DNA of 50,008 bases from a virus. A program made the translations under genes and the position numbers. The stretch is from positions 1-50,008 of the IMG/VR virus record IMGVR_UViG_3300020159_000130. The stretch is one strand, 5' to 3'. The first letter of the stretch is position 1. Each line of letters begins with the position of its first letter. The notes beneath the pieces are model-generated. The model was not told the DNA's origin, searched no databases, and saw nothing but the letters and a program-made list of their open reading frames with translations. Shown piece after piece: positions 35,466-45,253 of this stretch.

Positions 35466-35902
35466 GCGAAGAATTTTGCGATGGGGTAAAGATACTTCTT
35501 AAGCGTATGGAATCTAATCCTGAAGAGTTTAAGGGGTATGATAGTAAGTGGCATAACGTAGTGCCTACTCCGACAGGGCATGGAGAATGGAGTCATGCAC
35601 TTAGCCCCGAAGAGTTACAAGCACTTAAAGATGGGATACGTAAGATATACCGTAAAGTCTATACCGATCTAGTTATGTCTACGCTGCTATATGAGACGGA
35701 AGAAAAGCTGGCACAAGTACAACCCGGTACGTGGGTTAATGTTGGTGGTACAGGTGGGGGTGGTAGCGGGATGTTAGCAACAAACAGTATAACAGCATAC
35801 AACCCATATCTGAACTCAATTACATACCCGAACCAAACAAACACAGAAGTAAAGAAACCAACACTAGGCGAGATGTTAAAAGCAAAGTTAGCCCTACTAT
35901 GA
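35462..35902 (+). CDS. Hypothetical protein before DNA polymerase, 146 aa
   Basis: 146 residues, starting MSEEFCDGVKILLKRMESNP. The C-terminal half has a Gly-rich linker (WVNVGGTGGGGSGMLATNSI) and ends TLGEMLKAKLALL. It overlaps both neighbours by four bases. Not recognised. Confidence 0.6.
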   Translation: MSEEFCDGVKILLKRMESNPEEFKGYDSKWHNVVPTPTGHGEWSHALSPEELQALKDGIRKIYRKVYTDLVMSTLLYETEEKLAQVQPGTWVNVGGTGGGGSGMLATNSITAYNPYLNSITYPNQTNTEVKKPTLGEMLKAKLALL

Positions 35903-37725
35903 AGATAATCGCACTTGACTTTGAGACTTACTACGATAAAGAGTTTAGTCTATCAAAGATAACTACTGAAGAATACATCCGTGACAAACGGTTTGAGACT
36001 ATAGGGGTAGGGGTAAAGGAGGATGGAAAAGATGCTGAATGGTTTAGCGGAACACAGACCCAGATTGAGAGCTATCTCCAGTCACTCAATCTTGAACAAC
36101 ACCTTGTACTGGCTCACAACGCTATGTTTGATGCCGCTATACTTAGTTGGCGTTTTGGGATTAGTCCTCGGGGGTGGCTCGATACGCTTAGCATGGCACG
36201 TGCACTACACACTATTGAAGTGGGTGGAAGCCTTGCTGCGCTTGCCGAATATTACGAGCTTGGTAAGAAAGGAACGGAGGTTGTCAATGCACTCGGAAAA
36301 AGACGTGTGGACTTCACCGCCCAAGAGCTAGCAGAGTATGGCGAGTACTGCAAGAACGACTGCCACTTAACACTAGAGCTATTCAAGATACTGTCACAAG
36401 GCTACGACAAGGATGAGCTTAAGCTTATTGACTTGACCATACGTATGTTTAGTGAACCAGTATTGCGATTAGATAGCGGTGTATTAAGTGAGCATTTACT
36501 ACATGTTAAGAACAACAAAGAACAGTTAATGAATGCGGTTGAATCAGTTGGTAGAGATCAACTCATGTCTAATGATAAGTTTGCTGAGATGTTGAGGAAG
36601 CTACAGATTGATCCACCTAAAAAGATAAGTGCTGCTACAGGTAAGGAAGCTTATGCGTTTGCAAAATCTGATGAAGAGTTCAAAGCTTTACTAGAACATC
36701 AAGACCCACGAGTGCAAACTCTTGTAGCTGCGAGACTAGGTGTTAAGTCTACGTTGGAAGAAACAAGAACCCAACGCTTCATTGACATTGCCGCCAGAGG
36801 ATCTATGCCAGTTCCCCTACGCTACTATGCGGCTCACACAGGACGGTGGGGTGGTGACGAGAAAGTTAATTTACAAAACCTTCCCAGAAGTTCTTCGATT
36901 AAGTACGCTATATATGCGCCACGTGGTTACAGGATGATTGACTCTGACTCATCACAGATTGAAGCACGGACACTTGCTTGGTTGTCTGAGCAGAATGATC
37001 TTGTTGATGCTTTTGATAGGGGGGAAGATGTATATAAGAAGATGGCAGCTGCCATTTATAATAAAGCGGAAGATGATATTACTAAGAGTGAGAGGTTTGT
37101 TGGTAAGACAACGATTCTTGGGGCAGGGTACGGTATGGGCGCGGCTAAGTTCCAGACACAACTTAAGACGTTTGGAGTGCAGGTTGACGAAGATGAATGC
37201 AAGAGGATCATACAGGTCTACCGGCAGACTTACCCAAAGATACCTGAGTTCTGGAAGGCTGCGGGCAGAGCGTTAGATTGTATAAAAGACAATGTATTCT
37301 GTTATCTTGGTCGTGATGGTATTTTGACAGTTGAAGGCAGCAAAGGAATCAAGCTACCGAACGGTATGTACCTTAAATATCCGAACCTACGCAAGGTAAT
37401 TAAGGAAGACGGTAATACAGAAATGGTGTATGATACGAAGAAGGGTAGAGCAATTATACCTAATAGGATATACGGCGGTAAGGTAACAGAGAACGTATGT
37501 CAAGCATTAGCAAGGATAGTTATTGGTAAGCAGATGTTATTGATAGCTAAGAAGTATAAAGTCGTGATGACTGTACATGATGCGATAGCTTGTATCGTAC
37601 CAGAAGAGGAAGTAGAAAATGCACAAGAGTTTGTTGAGATGTGCATGAAGGTAAGACCTGACTGGGGTTTAGACTTACCCTTGAACTGTGAAGCTGGAAA
37701 CGGCATGAGTTATGGAGCGTGTTGA
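35899..37725 (+). CDS. Family-A DNA polymerase with 3'-5' exonuclease
   Basis: 608 residues, similar to T7 polymerase rather than the 900+ residue bacterial PolA, and lacking a 5' nuclease. Exonuclease motifs are LDFETYYD (D7, E9), HNAMFDAAI (D78) and YCKNDCH (Y150, D154). Polymerase motifs are HTGRWGG, SDSSQIEAR (motif A), KTTILGAGYGMG (motif B) and MTVHDAIA (motif C, about 558). It copies the phage genome; whether it needs a thioredoxin-like factor is unknown. The next gene starts immediately after its stop. Confidence 0.95.
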   Translation: MKIIALDFETYYDKEFSLSKITTEEYIRDKRFETIGVGVKEDGKDAEWFSGTQTQIESYLQSLNLEQHLVLAHNAMFDAAILSWRFGISPRGWLDTLSMARALHTIEVGGSLAALAEYYELGKKGTEVVNALGKRRVDFTAQELAEYGEYCKNDCHLTLELFKILSQGYDKDELKLIDLTIRMFSEPVLRLDSGVLSEHLLHVKNNKEQLMNAVESVGRDQLMSNDKFAEMLRKLQIDPPKKISAATGKEAYAFAKSDEEFKALLEHQDPRVQTLVAARLGVKSTLEETRTQRFIDIAARGSMPVPLRYYAAHTGRWGGDEKVNLQNLPRSSSIKYAIYAPRGYRMIDSDSSQIEARTLAWLSEQNDLVDAFDRGEDVYKKMAAAIYNKAEDDITKSERFVGKTTILGAGYGMGAAKFQTQLKTFGVQVDEDECKRIIQVYRQTYPKIPEFWKAAGRALDCIKDNVFCYLGRDGILTVEGSKGIKLPNGMYLKYPNLRKVIKEDGNTEMVYDTKKGRAIIPNRIYGGKVTENVCQALARIVIGKQMLLIAKKYKVVMTVHDAIACIVPEEEVENAQEFVEMCMKVRPDWGLDLPLNCEAGNGMSYGAC

Positions 37726-37995: not shown

Positions 37996-38279
37996 TAAAG
38001 CTTATTAAAAATTTTATTTCTACGCTGACTAAGATAAACGAAATGCAGGTTGCGGATAACGTTAAGCACACAAGCCCCCACAATACTAACCCGTCGCTTA
38101 AGGTTTCTTTGTATCATGGGCTTAACGGTAGGATACTAGAGATAGCAGTACATTCCACTGTAAAGCAAGGCAGCTTTAGCCATTCTGATTGGGAGTATGA
38201 GTTTTATTCTGTTCCTGAAGGTGAGACACTGAGCACTGCCATAGCGACTGCGTTTAAGCTAAAGGAAATTTCAAAGTGA
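37992..38279 (+). CDS. Small protein, tandem paralogue pair member 2, 95 aa
   Basis: 95 residues, paralogous to the preceding gene over its C-terminal ~60 residues (DWEYEFYSVPEGETLS), but with an unrelated N-terminus. The ATG overlaps the upstream stop, and its own TGA overlaps the GTG of the nuclease gene. Function unknown. Confidence 0.65.
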   Translation: MIKLIKNFISTLTKINEMQVADNVKHTSPHNTNPSLKVSLYHGLNGRILEIAVHSTVKQGSFSHSDWEYEFYSVPEGETLSTAIATAFKLKEISK

Positions 38280-38947
38280 CAGTGCCAGCTTGGTCTTACA
38301 GCAGTATTAAAACTTTCGATCAATGTCCTAAGAAGTACTATCACTTACGGATACTCAAAGATGTCAAAGATTCGGATACTACTGCGACAGTCTACGGTAA
38401 GGAGCTTCATACAGCAGCGGAGTTATTCATACGTGATGGCACGGAAATACCCGCTAAGTTCAGTTTTATTAAGACGACACTTGAGGCTCTTAACAAGATC
38501 GAAGGCGAGAAGTACTGTGAGATTAAGCTAGGTGTAGCAAAGAAAGATGGAGAGTTCATACCATGTGAGTTCTTTGACGAGGATGTATGGTGGCGAGGTA
38601 TAGCTGACTTACTCATAGTAAAGGGTGAGAAGGCTTTCTTAGTCGATTATAAAACCAGTAAGAACGCGAAGTATGCAGATACTAAACAGCTAGACTTGCT
38701 TGCAGGAGCAGTGTTCACACATTACCCTCAGGTCAAAACCATAAAGTCGGCACTGTTATTTGTAGTAAGTAACGAGGTGGTACAGAAAGAGCATGATGCT
38801 TTATTTAGAACCGCCTATCTATCAGCGATGCAACCAGAGCTAACAAGACTGGAAGCCGCAATTAATAACAATGTATGGAACCCCAATTCTGGTCCGCTAT
38901 GTAAGTACTGCCCAGTCGTAGAGTGTCCGCATAATAGAAGAGGTTAA
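38276..38947 (+). CDS. Cas4/RecB-type PD-(D/E)XK nuclease with likely iron-sulfur cluster, GTG start
   Basis: 223 residues starting at GTG 38276 (GTGA overlap). WRGIADLLIV then AFLVDYKTSK is the nuclease core (Asp … Asp-Tyr-Lys). One cysteine near the N-terminus (FDQCPKKYYH) and three near the C-terminus (LCKYCPVVECPHN) have the spacing of Cas4/AddB-type Fe-S nucleases. In phages these usually process DNA ends for recombination and replication; no CRISPR array is present. It lies between the polymerase and helicase genes. Confidence 0.85.
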   Translation: MTVPAWSYSSIKTFDQCPKKYYHLRILKDVKDSDTTATVYGKELHTAAELFIRDGTEIPAKFSFIKTTLEALNKIEGEKYCEIKLGVAKKDGEFIPCEFFDEDVWWRGIADLLIVKGEKAFLVDYKTSKNAKYADTKQLDLLAGAVFTHYPQVKTIKSALLFVVSNEVVQKEHDALFRTAYLSAMQPELTRLEAAINNNVWNPNSGPLCKYCPVVECPHNRRG

Positions 38948-38949
38948 TC

Positions 38950-39225
38950 ATGCCGTACGTAAATAAGAAGCGTCCTTACAAAAAAGAATATGAGCAGCAA
39001 GTAGAACGTGGTGAACATGAGACGAGGATGGATAGGCAACGTGCTCGTAACGAGATGGACAAGAAAGGTATAGACCGTAAAGGTAAGGATATAGATCATG
39101 CTGTGCCACTATCTAAAGGTGGTACTAATGCACCATCTAACCTGAAACTAAAATCACCTAGTGCTAACAGATCGTTTAGTCGTAACTCAGACCATACGGT
39201 TAAAGTAAACAAACCAAAGAAATAA
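38950..39225 (+). CDS. HNH-like nuclease, 91 aa
   Basis: 91 residues with a basic N-terminus and the core KDIDHAVPLSKGGTNAPSNL, then KLKSPSANRSFSRNSDH, an HNH pattern (DH … N … H). No CxxC pairs, unlike the HNH genes at 14-15.5 kb. It lies between the Cas4-like nuclease and the SNF2 helicase, three bases after one and two before the other, so it may act in DNA processing rather than homing. Confidence 0.8.
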   Translation: MPYVNKKRPYKKEYEQQVERGEHETRMDRQRARNEMDKKGIDRKGKDIDHAVPLSKGGTNAPSNLKLKSPSANRSFSRNSDHTVKVNKPKK

Positions 39226-39226
39226 A

Positions 39227-40789
39227 ATGCAAATCGTAGATGATAAATTGTTGGTCGTGCGAACTCGCCGTCCTCACCTAGTAACAGAGAAGATTAAGCG
39301 TAGTAAAGTTGTACAAGTCTTAGTCGATGGGTTGCATGACGTAGCTGTGTACTGGGGGTTGAAGGAAGCACAAGACTTAGCCGGTCTAAAGATTAAGAAC
39401 GTACCGTCTACGATTAACCGTGACTACGAATATCCCGGTCAGTTTAAACCCTTTGCACATCAGAAAGAAACAGCAGCGTTCCTAACACTACGTAAGAGAG
39501 CCTTCTGTTTCAACGAACAAGGTACAGGTAAGACAGCAGCAGTTATATGGGCGGCTGATTATCTAATGAAGCTAGGTCTTATCCGTCGTGTACTTATTAT
39601 TGCGCCCCTATCTATCTTGAAGTCAGCATGGCAACAAGACTTATTCCGTTTTGCTGTACACCGTAGCTGCGACATAGCCTATGGTAAACGTGAGATACGT
39701 AAAGAAATTATTAGAGGCGAAGCTGAGTTTGTTATTATTAATTTTGACGGTCTTGATATTGTTAAGGACGACATCATAGAAGATGGTAGGTTCGATTTGA
39801 TCGTAGCTGATGAAGCTTCTGCATACAAGAACATGCAGACTAATCGTTGGAAAGCATTGAAGTCCACAATAACACCTGATACATGGTTATGGATGTTGAC
39901 AGGTACACCGGCTGCACAGTCACCAGTAGATGCGTATGGTCTAGCTAAGTTAGTTAACCCTGATGGTATCCCTAAATTCTTTGGTCAGTTCCGTGACAAG
40001 GTAATGGAGAAGGTCGGTCAGTTCCGTTGGGTTCCACGTCCTAATGCTGAGGTGATTGTACATAACGCACTGCAACCAGCTATTAGATTTGAAAAGTCAC
40101 AATGCCTAGACTTACCGGATGTTACTTTTGTAGAACGTGAAGCACCACTCACACCACAACAGAAGATGTACTACAAGACTTTAAAAGACTTGATGGTTAT
40201 GGACGCGGCAGGTGAAGAGGTTACAGCTATTAACGCAGCGGTAAAGCTTAATAAGTTGTTACAGATATCCGGTGGCGCAGTTTATTCAGATACAAAAGAA
40301 GTTATCGAGTTTGATGTTAGTAATAGGTTAAATGCAGTTCAAGAAGTTATTGAAGAGGCGAGTCAGAAGGTGTTAGTGTTCGTGCCTTTTTCCCATACGA
40401 TTCAACTACTTAAAGAACATCTAACTAAAGCAAGTATCAAGGCAGAGATTATTAGCGGTCAAGTTCCTGTTAACCAACGCAACGACATCATCAAGCGTTT
40501 CCAAGAACAGCAAGACCCTAAGGTGTTAATCATTCAACCACAAGCTGCATCACATGGTTTGACATTGACCGCCGCAGATACTATAATATGGTACGCACCT
40601 GTCACCTCAGTAGAAACATACTTGCAAGCTAATGCTCGTATCAATAGACCGGGACAAAAACATCCTATGACTATTGTGCATATTAAAGGTAGTGAAGTAG
40701 AGACAAGGATGTACCACATGTTGCGTAACAACATTAAGAATCACAATCGAATCATTGAACTCTATAAACAAGAATTATCGGAAAAGTAG
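39227..40789 (+). CDS. SNF2-type (SF2) DNA helicase/translocase
   Basis: 520 residues. Motif I NEQGTGKTA (Lys102), motif Ia LIIAPLSIL, motif II ADEAS (194-198), motif III LTGTPAA (224-230), and motif VI QANARINRPGQ define a Snf2-like SF2 ATPase, as in phage recombination or replication-restart helicases (UvsW-like roles are possible). No extra domain. It ends the gene block before the structured leader at 40.8 kb. Confidence 0.9.
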   Translation: MQIVDDKLLVVRTRRPHLVTEKIKRSKVVQVLVDGLHDVAVYWGLKEAQDLAGLKIKNVPSTINRDYEYPGQFKPFAHQKETAAFLTLRKRAFCFNEQGTGKTAAVIWAADYLMKLGLIRRVLIIAPLSILKSAWQQDLFRFAVHRSCDIAYGKREIRKEIIRGEAEFVIINFDGLDIVKDDIIEDGRFDLIVADEASAYKNMQTNRWKALKSTITPDTWLWMLTGTPAAQSPVDAYGLAKLVNPDGIPKFFGQFRDKVMEKVGQFRWVPRPNAEVIVHNALQPAIRFEKSQCLDLPDVTFVEREAPLTPQQKMYYKTLKDLMVMDAAGEEVTAINAAVKLNKLLQISGGAVYSDTKEVIEFDVSNRLNAVQEVIEEASQKVLVFVPFSHTIQLLKEHLTKASIKAEIISGQVPVNQRNDIIKRFQEQQDPKVLIIQPQAASHGLTLTAADTIIWYAPVTSVETYLQANARINRPGQKHPMTIVHIKGSEVETRMYHMLRNNIKNHNRIIELYKQELSEK

Positions 40790-40806
40790 ATTGCATTGTA
40801 AGAAAA
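40790..40806 (+). promoter_or_regulatory. 17-bp copy of ATTGCATTGTAAGAAAA, control-site candidate
   Basis: Exact copy of 25479-25495, the junction between the 16-bp palindrome and the first TTGTAAGAA site. Here it follows the helicase stop codon directly (40789). A weak -10-like TAGAAT/TAAAAT lies 9-16 bases downstream, so it may sit over a promoter for the structured RNA. Confidence 0.65.
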
Positions 40807-40834
40807 TGGTGTAGAATAAAATTTAGTAATAAGC

Positions 40835-41006
40835 CTGAGAGCTAGGATGTTGTATTTGTTTATAGCATAGCAAAAGCGATGGGAATCCTTTCCCTAGTTC
40901 TCAGACCTATTACACGACCCCAGCCGGAGGTGGGGCTAATAACACCGGCAGTGGGAGCTAAGCCCTTCCTTTCTGTATTTAGTAATACTAGGCTTAGTGA
41001 TCCCAC
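40835..41006 (+). ncRNA. Highly structured RNA leader or small RNA upstream of 41029
   Basis: About 172 bases with three strong pairings. (a) CTGAGAGCTAGG (40835-40846) with CCTAGTTCTCAG (40893-40904), 12 bp including one G-U. (b) CCCCA/TGGGG (40918-40935) or, as an alternative, GCCGG/CCGGC (40923-40949). (c) GTGGGA-g-CTAAGCC (40951-40964) with GGCTTAG-tga-TCCCAC (40991-41006), 13 bp with a small internal loop. The RNA ends 12 bases before the free AAAAGGAG ribosome site of the next gene. It has no coding potential by the right frame usage and is not a terminator. A riboswitch-like leader or small RNA is inferred; I do not recognise a known class. Confidence 0.65.
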
Positions 41007-41028
41007 ATATAAACTAAAAGGAGCTAAT

Positions 41029-41430
41029 ATGGAAGAAGATGAAATACCCGCAGACAAATTAGTGAAAGCGTACATAAGAATACGTGATGCTAAATCAGAA
41101 TTAGTAAAGCAGCACGAAGCAGAGTTGGCTAAGTTAGAAGAGCAAATGGATGTACTGTCTAAGAAGATGCTAGATATTTGCAAGGATAATGGAGCTGATT
41201 CAATCAAGACTAATGCAGGTACTATTATGCGTAGTGTGTCCACAAGATACATGACCAATGACTGGGATAGCCTGTATAAGTTTATCAAAGAACATGATGC
41301 AATTGGGTTACTCGCAAAGTTTATCCATCAAGGCAACATGAAGCAGTTCATCGAAGAAAACCCCGATGTGTTCCCACCCGGCATGTTAGTTGACAGCCAA
41401 TATAAAATCGTTGTGAGGAGAAGTAAATGA
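41029..41430 (+). CDS. Conserved early protein, 133 aa
   Basis: 133 residues from the ATG at 41029 with AAAAGGAGCTAAT ahead; a longer frame runs through the structured RNA but has no ribosome site. Residues ~15-50 form a coiled coil (HEAELAKLEEQMDVLSKKML). The second half, TRYMTNDWDSLYKFIKEHDA, then FIHQGNMKQFIEENPDVFPP and YKIVVRRS, is a pattern I recall from phages next to SSB-like genes. Function unknown; possibly a recombination or replication accessory. Confidence 0.75.
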   Translation: MEEDEIPADKLVKAYIRIRDAKSELVKQHEAELAKLEEQMDVLSKKMLDICKDNGADSIKTNAGTIMRSVSTRYMTNDWDSLYKFIKEHDAIGLLAKFIHQGNMKQFIEENPDVFPPGMLVDSQYKIVVRRSK

Positions 41431-42391: not shown

Positions 42392-45253
42392 ATGGCTAAC
42401 TTTGACCTATTAGATACAGTACTTGCTACTGAAGGGTGGTACGCTGTTGTGGGTATTAAGGAAAAGTCAGTACTACAAGAATTAGTTCAAACTCGTGAAG
42501 AAGTAGACGCATTAGTAGCTAAGTTTCTAGCAGCAGAACGTAACGTATATTTTGGATGTGCCAAGTACGAGACAGGCGAGAACCGTAAGAAAGAAAATGC
42601 TAAGTACTTCAAAGCGTTCTGGATGGACATTGATTGTGGTGCGGACAAAGCAGTACCAGACCCCACGACTGGAAAAGTAGACGGCTATATAGACCAAGCT
42701 ACAGGTTTAGCTGAGCTACAAAGATTTTGCAAAACTATAGGATTACCAAGACCAACATTGGTTAACTCAGGACGTGGTATACACGCATACTGGGTGTTGG
42801 ATGAAGCTATATCAAGAGAAGAATGGGAGCCTGTATCTAATCGAATACACGCACTCTGCGATATACATGACCTGTTAGCAGACCCATCGTGCTTTGAGGC
42901 TGCGCGTATCCTGCGTATACCTAACACGTTAAACTTTAAAGATTCACCCCCCTCGAATGTCGAGGCTATCTCTTTAGGTAAGACCACAAGTCTTGCCCAA
43001 ATGCGCGAGTTACTAGGTGTGGTGGATGAGCCTAAAAAGCTTTTCACCCCTCGCCCATTGCGTCAACGTAGTGCTTTGACCATGTCCCTTATGGGTAACC
43101 GTGTGTCAAAGTTTAAGACAATCATGATTAAGTCAGCACAAGGTCAGGGTTGTCAGCAGTTAGTCCATTGCTATCAGAACCAAGATTCCATTAGCTACAA
43201 TCTATGGCGCTCGGCTATGTCGATAGCGGCTTTCTGTGAAGAAGGTGTTAACGCAGCACACAAGATGTCTGAGAACTATCCGGGCTATAACCCTGAGGAA
43301 GTGGAGACTAAAGTCCATGACCTACAGCGTAACGGTGGTCCTCATTTCTGTGAGACGTTTGAGAAGGAAAACCCCGGTGGCTGTGATGGCTGCATACACA
43401 AGGGCAAGATCAAGACACCTATAGTATTAGGCAAAGAGATTGCACGTGATGAACCAACGGAAGAAGGTTATGTAGTTGAGGTGGAAGCGGAGGAAGAGGA
43501 AGAAGTCGAGCAGTATGTAATCCCAACGTACCCATTCCCATTCTACAGAGGTAAGGCAGGTGGTATATACAAGCAAGCTAAGGATGACGATGCTGAAGAT
43601 GATCTAGTCTATGAGCATGACTTGTACGTAGTTAAGCGTATGAAAGACCCAGAGCTGGGTGAAGTTGCTTTGATGCGCTTACACCTGCCACGTGACGGTG
43701 TTGCTGAGTTTACTGCACCACTTGACCACATCATAGCTAAGGATGACTTACGTAAAATCTTGGCTAAACGTGGTGTAGCAGGATACCCAAAACAGATGGA
43801 ACTACTAGCACAGTTTGTGTTAGCTAGCATAAAAGAACTACAGCTTGAACGAAAGGCGGAGCTTATGAGAACACAATTTGGATGGGCAGATAACGATAGT
43901 AAATTTATTATTGGTGACCGTGAGATAACAGCAGAAGGTATATATTACAGTCCACCTTCATCGCAGACTACGGCTATAGCACACTACATGACACAAGTCG
44001 GTACACTAGAAGCTTGGAAAGAATGCTTTAACATGTATAATCGACCCGGACTAGAACCAAACGCGTTTGCTGCGCTGACAGGATTCGGCTCACCGTTGTT
44101 GAAGTTTACAGGGCTGAGTGGTGCTATTGTTAACGTGATCTTCAAGAAGTCAGGCTCAGGTAAATCTACTACATTAGCAATGTGTAACAGCATTTATGGG
44201 CATCCTACTAGGTTGATGGCTATGCCTAGAGATACAATGAATGCACGTATGCAGAAGCTAGGTGTGATGAATAACCTGCCTTTCACGATGGACGAAGTCA
44301 CTAACATGAAGTCAGACGAGTTCTCGGATTTAGCCTACGCTATGTCCCAAGGAAGAGGTAAGGATCGTCAGAAATCGTCCGCCAACGAACTGCGCCTTAA
44401 CCTCACTTCTTGGCAAAACTTATCCCTCTCCAGTGCTAATGCCAGCTTCTATGAGAAGTTAGGTTCCTTAAAGGCTACACCTGACGGTGAGCGTATGCGC
44501 TTTATTGAGTATGAGATTGGTTATACCGATGCTATATCTACTGAGGAAGGTAAGCGTGTATTTGACCACGAGCTGTTACAGAACTATGGACATGCCGGTG
44601 ACATCTATGCACAATGGCTAGTAGCTAACAGAGAAGAAGCTATTCGTAACCTTCTTGAAGTACAAGCTAAGATTGATAAAGAATTACGTCTTACCCAGCG
44701 TGAGCGTTTCTGGTCAGCAGTCGTAGCGTGTAATATCACCGGTGGCTTGATTGCTAAGTCGTTAGGTTTAATTAACTACGACATGAAAGCAATTTATAAG
44801 TGGGCTACTACGATGGTACGTGACGTTCGTGAGGATACTGTTGCCCCAGTTGATGATGCTTCTAATATTATTGGTGACTACATGAACCGCCACTTGCGTA
44901 ATATCCTAATCGTTAATGGTGAGACAGACGCTAGGACTAAGCTGGCACCTGCACCACTGCAAGAACCATACGGTGAGTTAGTTATACGGTATGAGCCAGA
45001 TACCAAGAAGATGTTTATTGTATCTAAGCACTTTAGAGATGACTGCGTAGAACGTCAGGTTAACTACAAGGACACCCTAAAGCAGCTTACAGCTCGTGGG
45101 GTATATCAGGGAAGCACTACACGTCGCATGACTACAGGCACTAAGATTAAGGGGCCTCCTGTTCATGTAATGCAGTTTAACTGTGATACCCCAGACTTCA
45201 TTAGCGTGGATGATTACTTAGATGCGAGTACAGGGAATACCGTATCAGATTAA
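42392..45253 (+). CDS. Primase-helicase: AEP-type primase with SF3/DUF927-like helicase
   Basis: 953 residues. The N-terminal part has WMDIDCGAD (D79, D81) and NSGRGIHAYWVL (H131), the DxD and xxH motifs of archaeo-eukaryotic-type primases of the RepB-like kind, then ARILRIPNTLNFKD. The C-terminal part has Walker A KSGSGKSTT (586-594) and Walker B LPFTMDEV, with AYAMSQGRGKDR, as in DUF927-type helicases. Such fusions prime and unwind the replication fork. No ribosome site is visible ahead of the ATG, and a terminator stands just upstream. Confidence 0.85.
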   Translation: MANFDLLDTVLATEGWYAVVGIKEKSVLQELVQTREEVDALVAKFLAAERNVYFGCAKYETGENRKKENAKYFKAFWMDIDCGADKAVPDPTTGKVDGYIDQATGLAELQRFCKTIGLPRPTLVNSGRGIHAYWVLDEAISREEWEPVSNRIHALCDIHDLLADPSCFEAARILRIPNTLNFKDSPPSNVEAISLGKTTSLAQMRELLGVVDEPKKLFTPRPLRQRSALTMSLMGNRVSKFKTIMIKSAQGQGCQQLVHCYQNQDSISYNLWRSAMSIAAFCEEGVNAAHKMSENYPGYNPEEVETKVHDLQRNGGPHFCETFEKENPGGCDGCIHKGKIKTPIVLGKEIARDEPTEEGYVVEVEAEEEEEVEQYVIPTYPFPFYRGKAGGIYKQAKDDDAEDDLVYEHDLYVVKRMKDPELGEVALMRLHLPRDGVAEFTAPLDHIIAKDDLRKILAKRGVAGYPKQMELLAQFVLASIKELQLERKAELMRTQFGWADNDSKFIIGDREITAEGIYYSPPSSQTTAIAHYMTQVGTLEAWKECFNMYNRPGLEPNAFAALTGFGSPLLKFTGLSGAIVNVIFKKSGSGKSTTLAMCNSIYGHPTRLMAMPRDTMNARMQKLGVMNNLPFTMDEVTNMKSDEFSDLAYAMSQGRGKDRQKSSANELRLNLTSWQNLSLSSANASFYEKLGSLKATPDGERMRFIEYEIGYTDAISTEEGKRVFDHELLQNYGHAGDIYAQWLVANREEAIRNLLEVQAKIDKELRLTQRERFWSAVVACNITGGLIAKSLGLINYDMKAIYKWATTMVRDVREDTVAPVDDASNIIGDYMNRHLRNILIVNGETDARTKLAPAPLQEPYGELVIRYEPDTKKMFIVSKHFRDDCVERQVNYKDTLKQLTARGVYQGSTTRRMTTGTKIKGPPVHVMQFNCDTPDFISVDDYLDASTGNTVSD

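Follow-up and report, generated by a model that had tools for sequence, protein, structure and literature searches.

The window, that is, the whole stretch of 50,008 nucleotides of viral DNA analysed here, is a phage contig and carries genes for a DNA polymerase A, a PD-(D/E)XK nuclease, an HNH protein and an SNF2 helicase, the last of which lies directly 5' of a noncoding interval that holds two RNA elements, A and B (Table 1). On the other side of this interval is a gene for a DUF7307 / Gam-Gp157-like protein, followed by an "SSB-like" gene, whose product has 300 aa and an acidic C-terminus, and, 3' of the latter, by a DUF927 primase/helicase gene. A first-pass annotation, made from the letters alone, had placed a ribosome site for the next gene close behind the last stem, and a Shine-Dalgarno (SD) sequence is indeed found there. 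Just 5' of the RNA elements, a weak TTGCAT ... TAGAAT pair is suggestive of a promoter, but only suggestive; it was not among the calls of a consensus promoter scan, and relatives show better promoter-like forms, e.g., TTGACA-16-TATAGT in L008. A perfect TTGACA-17-TATAAT is located within the helicase gene (40559-40587, +), where the sequence probably codes for a helicase motif, and may be due to chance.

Table 1. Positions of genes and RNA features in the window
Feature	Position	Strand	Remarks
DNA polymerase A gene	35899-37725		
PD-(D/E)XK nuclease gene	38276-38947		
HNH gene	38950-39225		
SNF2 helicase gene	39227-40789		
Noncoding interval	40790-41028		
Promoter-like pair TTGCAT ... TAGAAT (weak)	40791-40817	+	15-nt spacer; sequence reading
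Element A, hairpin cassette	40826-40912	+	fold z -5.4 and covariation
A, outer stem	40827-40831/40908-40912		
A, 12-bp stem CTGAGAGCTAGG/CCTAGTTCTCAG	40835-40846/40893-40904		one G-U
A, inner hairpin	40847-40854/40861-40868		
Element B, pseudoknot + P3 RNA, conserved family	40917-41006	+	model R1 87.9 bits, E 1.7e-19; covariation
B, S1	40918-40934 (40918-40920 with 40932-40934)	+	outer pair flips C-G/G-C in 13/34 sequences; 100% paired
B, S2	40923-40949 (40923-40927 with 40945-40949)	+	98.8% paired
B, L3 loop GCTAATAACA	40935-40944	+	near-invariant; AUAAC invariant in A2
B, P3 hairpin	40951-41006	+	outer 40951-40956/41001-41006, inner 40957-40964/40991-40998 (6 + 8 bp)
B, GA bulge in P3	40999-41000		conserved G-U pair 40957-40998 beside it
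B, UUCCUUU in P3 loop	40966-40972	+	matches 16S anti-SD end (conserved as CUCCU/UCCUU); loop statistics
SD AAGGAG of next gene	41018-41023	+	11 nt past last P3 stem base
DUF7307 / Gam-Gp157-like gene	41029-41430	+	133 aa; no obligate partner of element B
DUF927 primase/helicase gene	42392-45253		

In the window no Rfam family was matched at gathering score, ARAGORN reported neither tRNA nor tmRNA, and cmscan up to an E value of 10 returned no plausible riboswitch, tRNA, tmRNA or ribozyme family. An open frame (40879-41430) crosses element B in the window phage. A coding role for the element was considered and rejected, the frames (27/26/24) not being kept in relatives and 6 of 77 being open; no conserved protein is encoded, in agreement with the noncoding character assigned to the interval at the outset.

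The first-pass annotation had treated positions 40835-41006 as a single structured RNA, and all of the stems listed there are present, including the 12-bp stem with one G-U. These coordinates, however, join two independent RNA elements. This follows from 70 loci collected with relatives of the two downstream proteins, in which the helicase-to-gene intervals were read: element A is restricted to close relatives and absent from the intervals of L008-L019, and in L002 and L025 it occurs in several copies or together with other modules, whereas element B is also kept by more distant relatives; in L012 and L024 it stands 5' of a different inserted gene. The homologue of the 41029 gene is present in L026-L069 with no element before it. 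In three of these loci (L047, L048, L049) an ORF of GIY-YIG-like appearance, judged by eye, lies between the helicase and the 41029 homologue, at the place where the close relative L070 has the element.

The surmise that so much complementarity exceeds chance was borne out by RNAfold, since the region 40820-41030 folds at -67.1 kcal/mol versus -51.9 ± 4.5 for shuffled sequences (z -3.4; 0 of 200 shuffles as low). Taken separately, 40826-40912 gives z -5.4 and 40917-41006 gives z -1.6; the score of the whole region thus stems mostly from the first stem, and the modest value for element B reflects the fact that RNAfold cannot draw pseudoknots. For both elements the comparative evidence, i.e., abundant compensatory changes among homologues of the kind that the annotation had proposed to look for, is far stronger than the fold energies.

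Element A is an RNA cassette in its own right, placed by coincidence 5' of element B in this lineage. Across 25 pairs in 23 sequences, 93.5% of the cells are paired, with 33 double-sided changes versus 10 in shuffled and 2-7 in slid controls. Its pattern matches 34 stretches in IMG/VR, scattered over phage contigs and some of them next to tRNAs, with the copies in L242 and L249 directly between tRNA genes; no Rfam match was obtained among the loci scanned. The closing motif recurs in modules with a different interior (L025, L252, L253, L256). Along these lines, a second family of phage RNA cassettes can be recognized (window 40826-40912; L242, L249, L252, L253, L256, L025) that has the common ends CCAA.ACGCAUGAGG ... 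CCUCAGUCGUGUUGG and interchangeable interiors, some with a T-arm-like GGUUCGAAUCC.

That a conserved structured RNA exists at this locus is near certain. As shown by comparison of its copies, element B, a compact noncoding RNA of tailed phages, folds into an H-type pseudoknot, with an S1 of 3 bp and an S2 of 5 bp crossing it, followed by the 14-bp hairpin P3, and the presence of the pseudoknot as such can hardly be doubted. Two 5-bp pairings, CCCCA 40918-40922 with TGGGG 40931-40935 and GCCGG 40923-40927 with CCGGC 40945-40949, had originally been described as competing and possibly switching; both exist, but S1 and S2 covary independently and fit together, so that they coexist as one pseudoknot. 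The A-rich L3 completes this core, and GUGA is invariant in A2. The last stem, first given as 13 bp with a small internal loop, does have a small internal asymmetry, namely a GA bulge, but comprises 14 bp. The palindrome TAGTAATACTA noted in its loop at 40980 is present in the window and is not conserved in relatives.

In 34 aligned copies of element B, 94.5% of the cells are paired, and 147 double-sided compensatory cells were counted, the shuffled controls giving 44 and the slid ones 9-24. In S2, two pairs show CG/GC/AU/UA and GC/UA/AU exchanges, and in P3 double-sided changes occur at 12 of 14 pairs while the G-U is kept in 33 of 34 sequences. Because the search pattern GTGGSGCTAATAACNNCNGC fixed parts of S1, L3 and S2, the invariance in these regions is partly ascertained; the covariation in S2 is unbiased, since the pattern placed no constraint on its variable pairs (columns 9/31 and 11/29). 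The covariation evidence for element B is decisive.

Several variations on this architecture were encountered. In part of the family, at many loci (e.g., L169, L184, L143, L120), P3 is succeeded on its 3' side by another hairpin, P4, whose loop is CGUAA or GAAAGA, and a terminator-like hairpin or U-run comes after P3/P4 in L135, L148, L164, L208 and L211, P4 of L135 ending in a U-run; the window has no clear terminator 3' of P3. In L200 (G023), L3 contains an extra small hairpin, and in L071, L006, L011, L109 and L129 a conserved module with a variable interior, GGGGAAAGCGGAUGC ... GCAGCGAGUACCCC, lies directly 5' of element B.

The pattern matched 112 stretches in IMG/VR, a few of which, judged by the missing flanking core, are not real elements. 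De-duplication on the core plus 60 nt left 92 distinct copies; IMG/VR supplied most of them, genomes a few and an isolate one. When 20 records were searched whole, 19 carried element B, 18 of them in exactly one copy and G014 in two, one strong and one weak; the exception, G003, was a relative already known to lack the element. Outside IMG/VR, a search of 84,980 species genomes of bacteria and archaea with a strict pattern gave 5 stretches, and model R1 detected the element in 5 of 398 Pseudomonadota genomes; one Endozoicomonas assembly, already known as a carrier, had 5 copies by R1. Among GenBank phages, blastn with the consensus query retrieved one isolate, Cronobacter phage JK004, whose copy scores weakly, and none when queried with the stretch from the window or with the core of ACCCC type. 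R1 had no match in Xp15, Effie, KPP25 and HHU4; its weak matches in Rollin and RHph_TM3_14A (E 0.02-0.08) were taken as chance.

The genes beside element B differ and include, among others, those for helicase, SSB-like protein, OB-fold SSB (L169), HU (L164), DNA ligase (L149), Rz (L141), terminase small subunit (L133) and CsrA (L101, L135), although these identities are a reading of sequences, the ORF calls being mechanical and some flanking ORFs doubtful. The core starts 5-9 nt past the upstream stop codon in 30 of the 48 copies that have a stop within 30 nt, a position that may indicate a 3'-UTR origin or simple compactness.

A second recurrent feature is the pyrimidine stretch in the P3 loop. 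CUCCU or UCCUU, the 16S anti-SD sequence, occurs in 37 of 54 de-duplicated, yet phylogenetically non-independent, P3 loops versus 6.4 expected (0 of 2000 shuffles), and UCCUUU alone in 24 of 54 versus 1.5 expected. Of 30 copies without an SD and start within 70 nt downstream, 20 retain the motif, as do 44 of 62 with them; pairing with an adjacent SD therefore does not explain the conservation of the loop, which argues for pairing in trans over pairing in cis. On the other hand, RNAduplex pairing of the window loop with the SD regions of 53 predicted genes gave a mean of -6.82, equal to that of shuffled loops, so that composition alone could account for SD pairing.

The structure of element B comes from comparison, and its function we infer. 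Preference is given, tentatively and at somewhat less than even confidence, to a phage-encoded, trans-acting structured RNA that would present an anti-SD seed. The RNA would be released from, or end within, a phage mRNA, usually just past a stop codon; the pseudoknot together with the G-U/GA motif may serve as a scaffold or a docking site for a host factor, and the P3 loop could pair with SD sequences in trans, such that translation is damped or redirected during infection. In favor of such a role are the roughly one copy per phage, the unrelated neighbors and the anti-SD loop, and among the three options initially offered (riboswitch-like leader, small RNA, packaging signal) a small RNA fits best. 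Against it, an SD and start lie close downstream in 62 of 92 copies, so that pairing in cis is possible, and the invariant core seems too elaborate for a scaffold that simply presents a seed.

These same 62 copies, together with the 11 nt that separate P3 from the SD in the window and an invariance of the core that is aptamer-like, are what recommends a translational leader acting in cis, in which UUCCUUU of the P3 loop would pair with AAAGGAG (41017-41023), the SD that serves the next gene, and might be toggled via the pseudoknot by a ligand, a protein or a terminating upstream ribosome, as in an orphan riboswitch or an autoregulatory leader. This reading is a serious alternative, if a less probable one: no conserved downstream gene or pathway, as expected for a cis riboswitch, was found, the downstream genes being unrelated between phages; the loop motif is equally kept without an SD and start; MAYSQK-type downstream genes with no recognizable SD retain the loop; and often over 180 nt lie between the element and the next start. 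The initial suggestion of a leader serving the 41029 gene specifically is not supported, as the neighbors change completely and L026-L069 have the gene without the element.

The placement regardless of gene identity would be accommodated by a cis-acting transcript element that is independent of the gene, either a modifier of RNA polymerase resembling put of HK022, whose antiterminator RNAs modify RNA polymerase, or a processing or exonuclease-blocking element in a polycistronic mRNA. The core position shortly behind the stop codon and its invariance are consistent with such an element, which is about as serious an alternative as the leader. Against it, there is one copy per phage and not one per operon, and a purely cis role would leave the anti-SD loop unexplained.

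Far less probable is a self-cleaving ribozyme, possibly cutting near the invariant GUGA. In the Pistol ribozyme (RF02679), a hairpin loop is pseudoknotted downstream, and next comes a helix that contains an asymmetric internal loop, the same general order of parts, but the likeness is one of topology; cmscan gave no Pistol match at E up to 10, nor a plausible match to any other Rfam ribozyme family. Least probable is a DNA-level packaging, origin or recombination site, as the single copy per record, the location among replication genes in the window and the position after Rz, toward the terminase region, in some lambdoid-like contigs might suggest, for the position varies freely, the packaging signal proposed earlier shows no consistent terminase link, and pseudoknot covariation that preserves a G-U pair is a signature of RNA.

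Among known systems, the leader of T4 gene 32 is a pseudoknot near an SSB gene, and in the window element B is likewise an H-type pseudoknot near an SSB-like gene, but it is not tied to SSB across phages. Staphylococcal RNAIII and RsaE are SD-targeting small RNAs with C-rich loops; element B shares with them the pyrimidine loop complementary to SD sequences and has no homology to either.

The closest relationship is to Proteo-phage-1 (RF03044), which Rfam lists as "sRNA"; none of the papers searched names Proteo-phage. The window scores 14.6 bits against RF03044 (cut-off 42), with the pseudoknot core aligned, and weak RF03044 matches coincide with element B in G018, G007, G005 and W01. A chain of intermediates, in which RF03044 and R1 match one and the same stretch, is formed by L204 (43.5 bits, above the cut-off, and 24.6 bits, E 4e-5, respectively), L208 (27.7 and 32.5 bits) and L216 (43.2 and 16.3 bits); in these loci S1 is extended to about 6 bp and followed by S2, an AG linker and P3. 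In the locus of L216, a type II hammerhead ribozyme (1361-1437, -; 53 bits) was noted 63 nt past the end of the Proteo-phage-1 match, along with sub-threshold C4 and isrK-like matches.

Given the bridging sequences that match both models, element B very probably belongs to the Proteo-phage-1 class as a divergent branch, the window falling under the Rfam cut-off and lacking the 5' hairpin. The initial description as undescribed is half right: the window scores below the cut-off of every Rfam family, but the bridging sequences tie element B to a catalogued family. Both have the core AGCCGG..GUG..AAC.CCGGCAG (in element B an S1 hairpin loop with AGCCGG..GUG, then AAC.CCGGCAG), phage or prophage settings and, in L204, L208, L209 and L216, the order S1/S2, AG, P3. 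They differ in S1, which has 5-6 bp in Proteo-phage-1 and 3 bp in element B; in L3, which in element B reads GCUAAUAACA, unlike Proteo-phage-1; and in the 5' hairpin (model 7-37; CCaGg..CguaaG..CuGG), which is missing from the window and most relatives, its place in the window being taken by element A, unrelated in sequence. Furthermore, the structure annotated in the Rfam alignments for RF03044 does not include the S2 pairing, and the model stops short of P3.

A catalogued, unexplained RNA motif can thus be extended to a larger class whose fold is defined (pseudoknot, G-U/GA P3, anti-SD loop) that is found in many unrelated phages, about one copy each. It is conceivable, if doubtful, that element B and Proteo-phage-1 make up one widespread class of mimics of the 16S rRNA 3' end, in which the scaffold would dock a conserved host partner and the loop would control translation initiation in trans for many proteobacterial phages. 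Should the anti-SD loop prove functional, it would give phages an RNA tool of general use that is directed at translation initiation.
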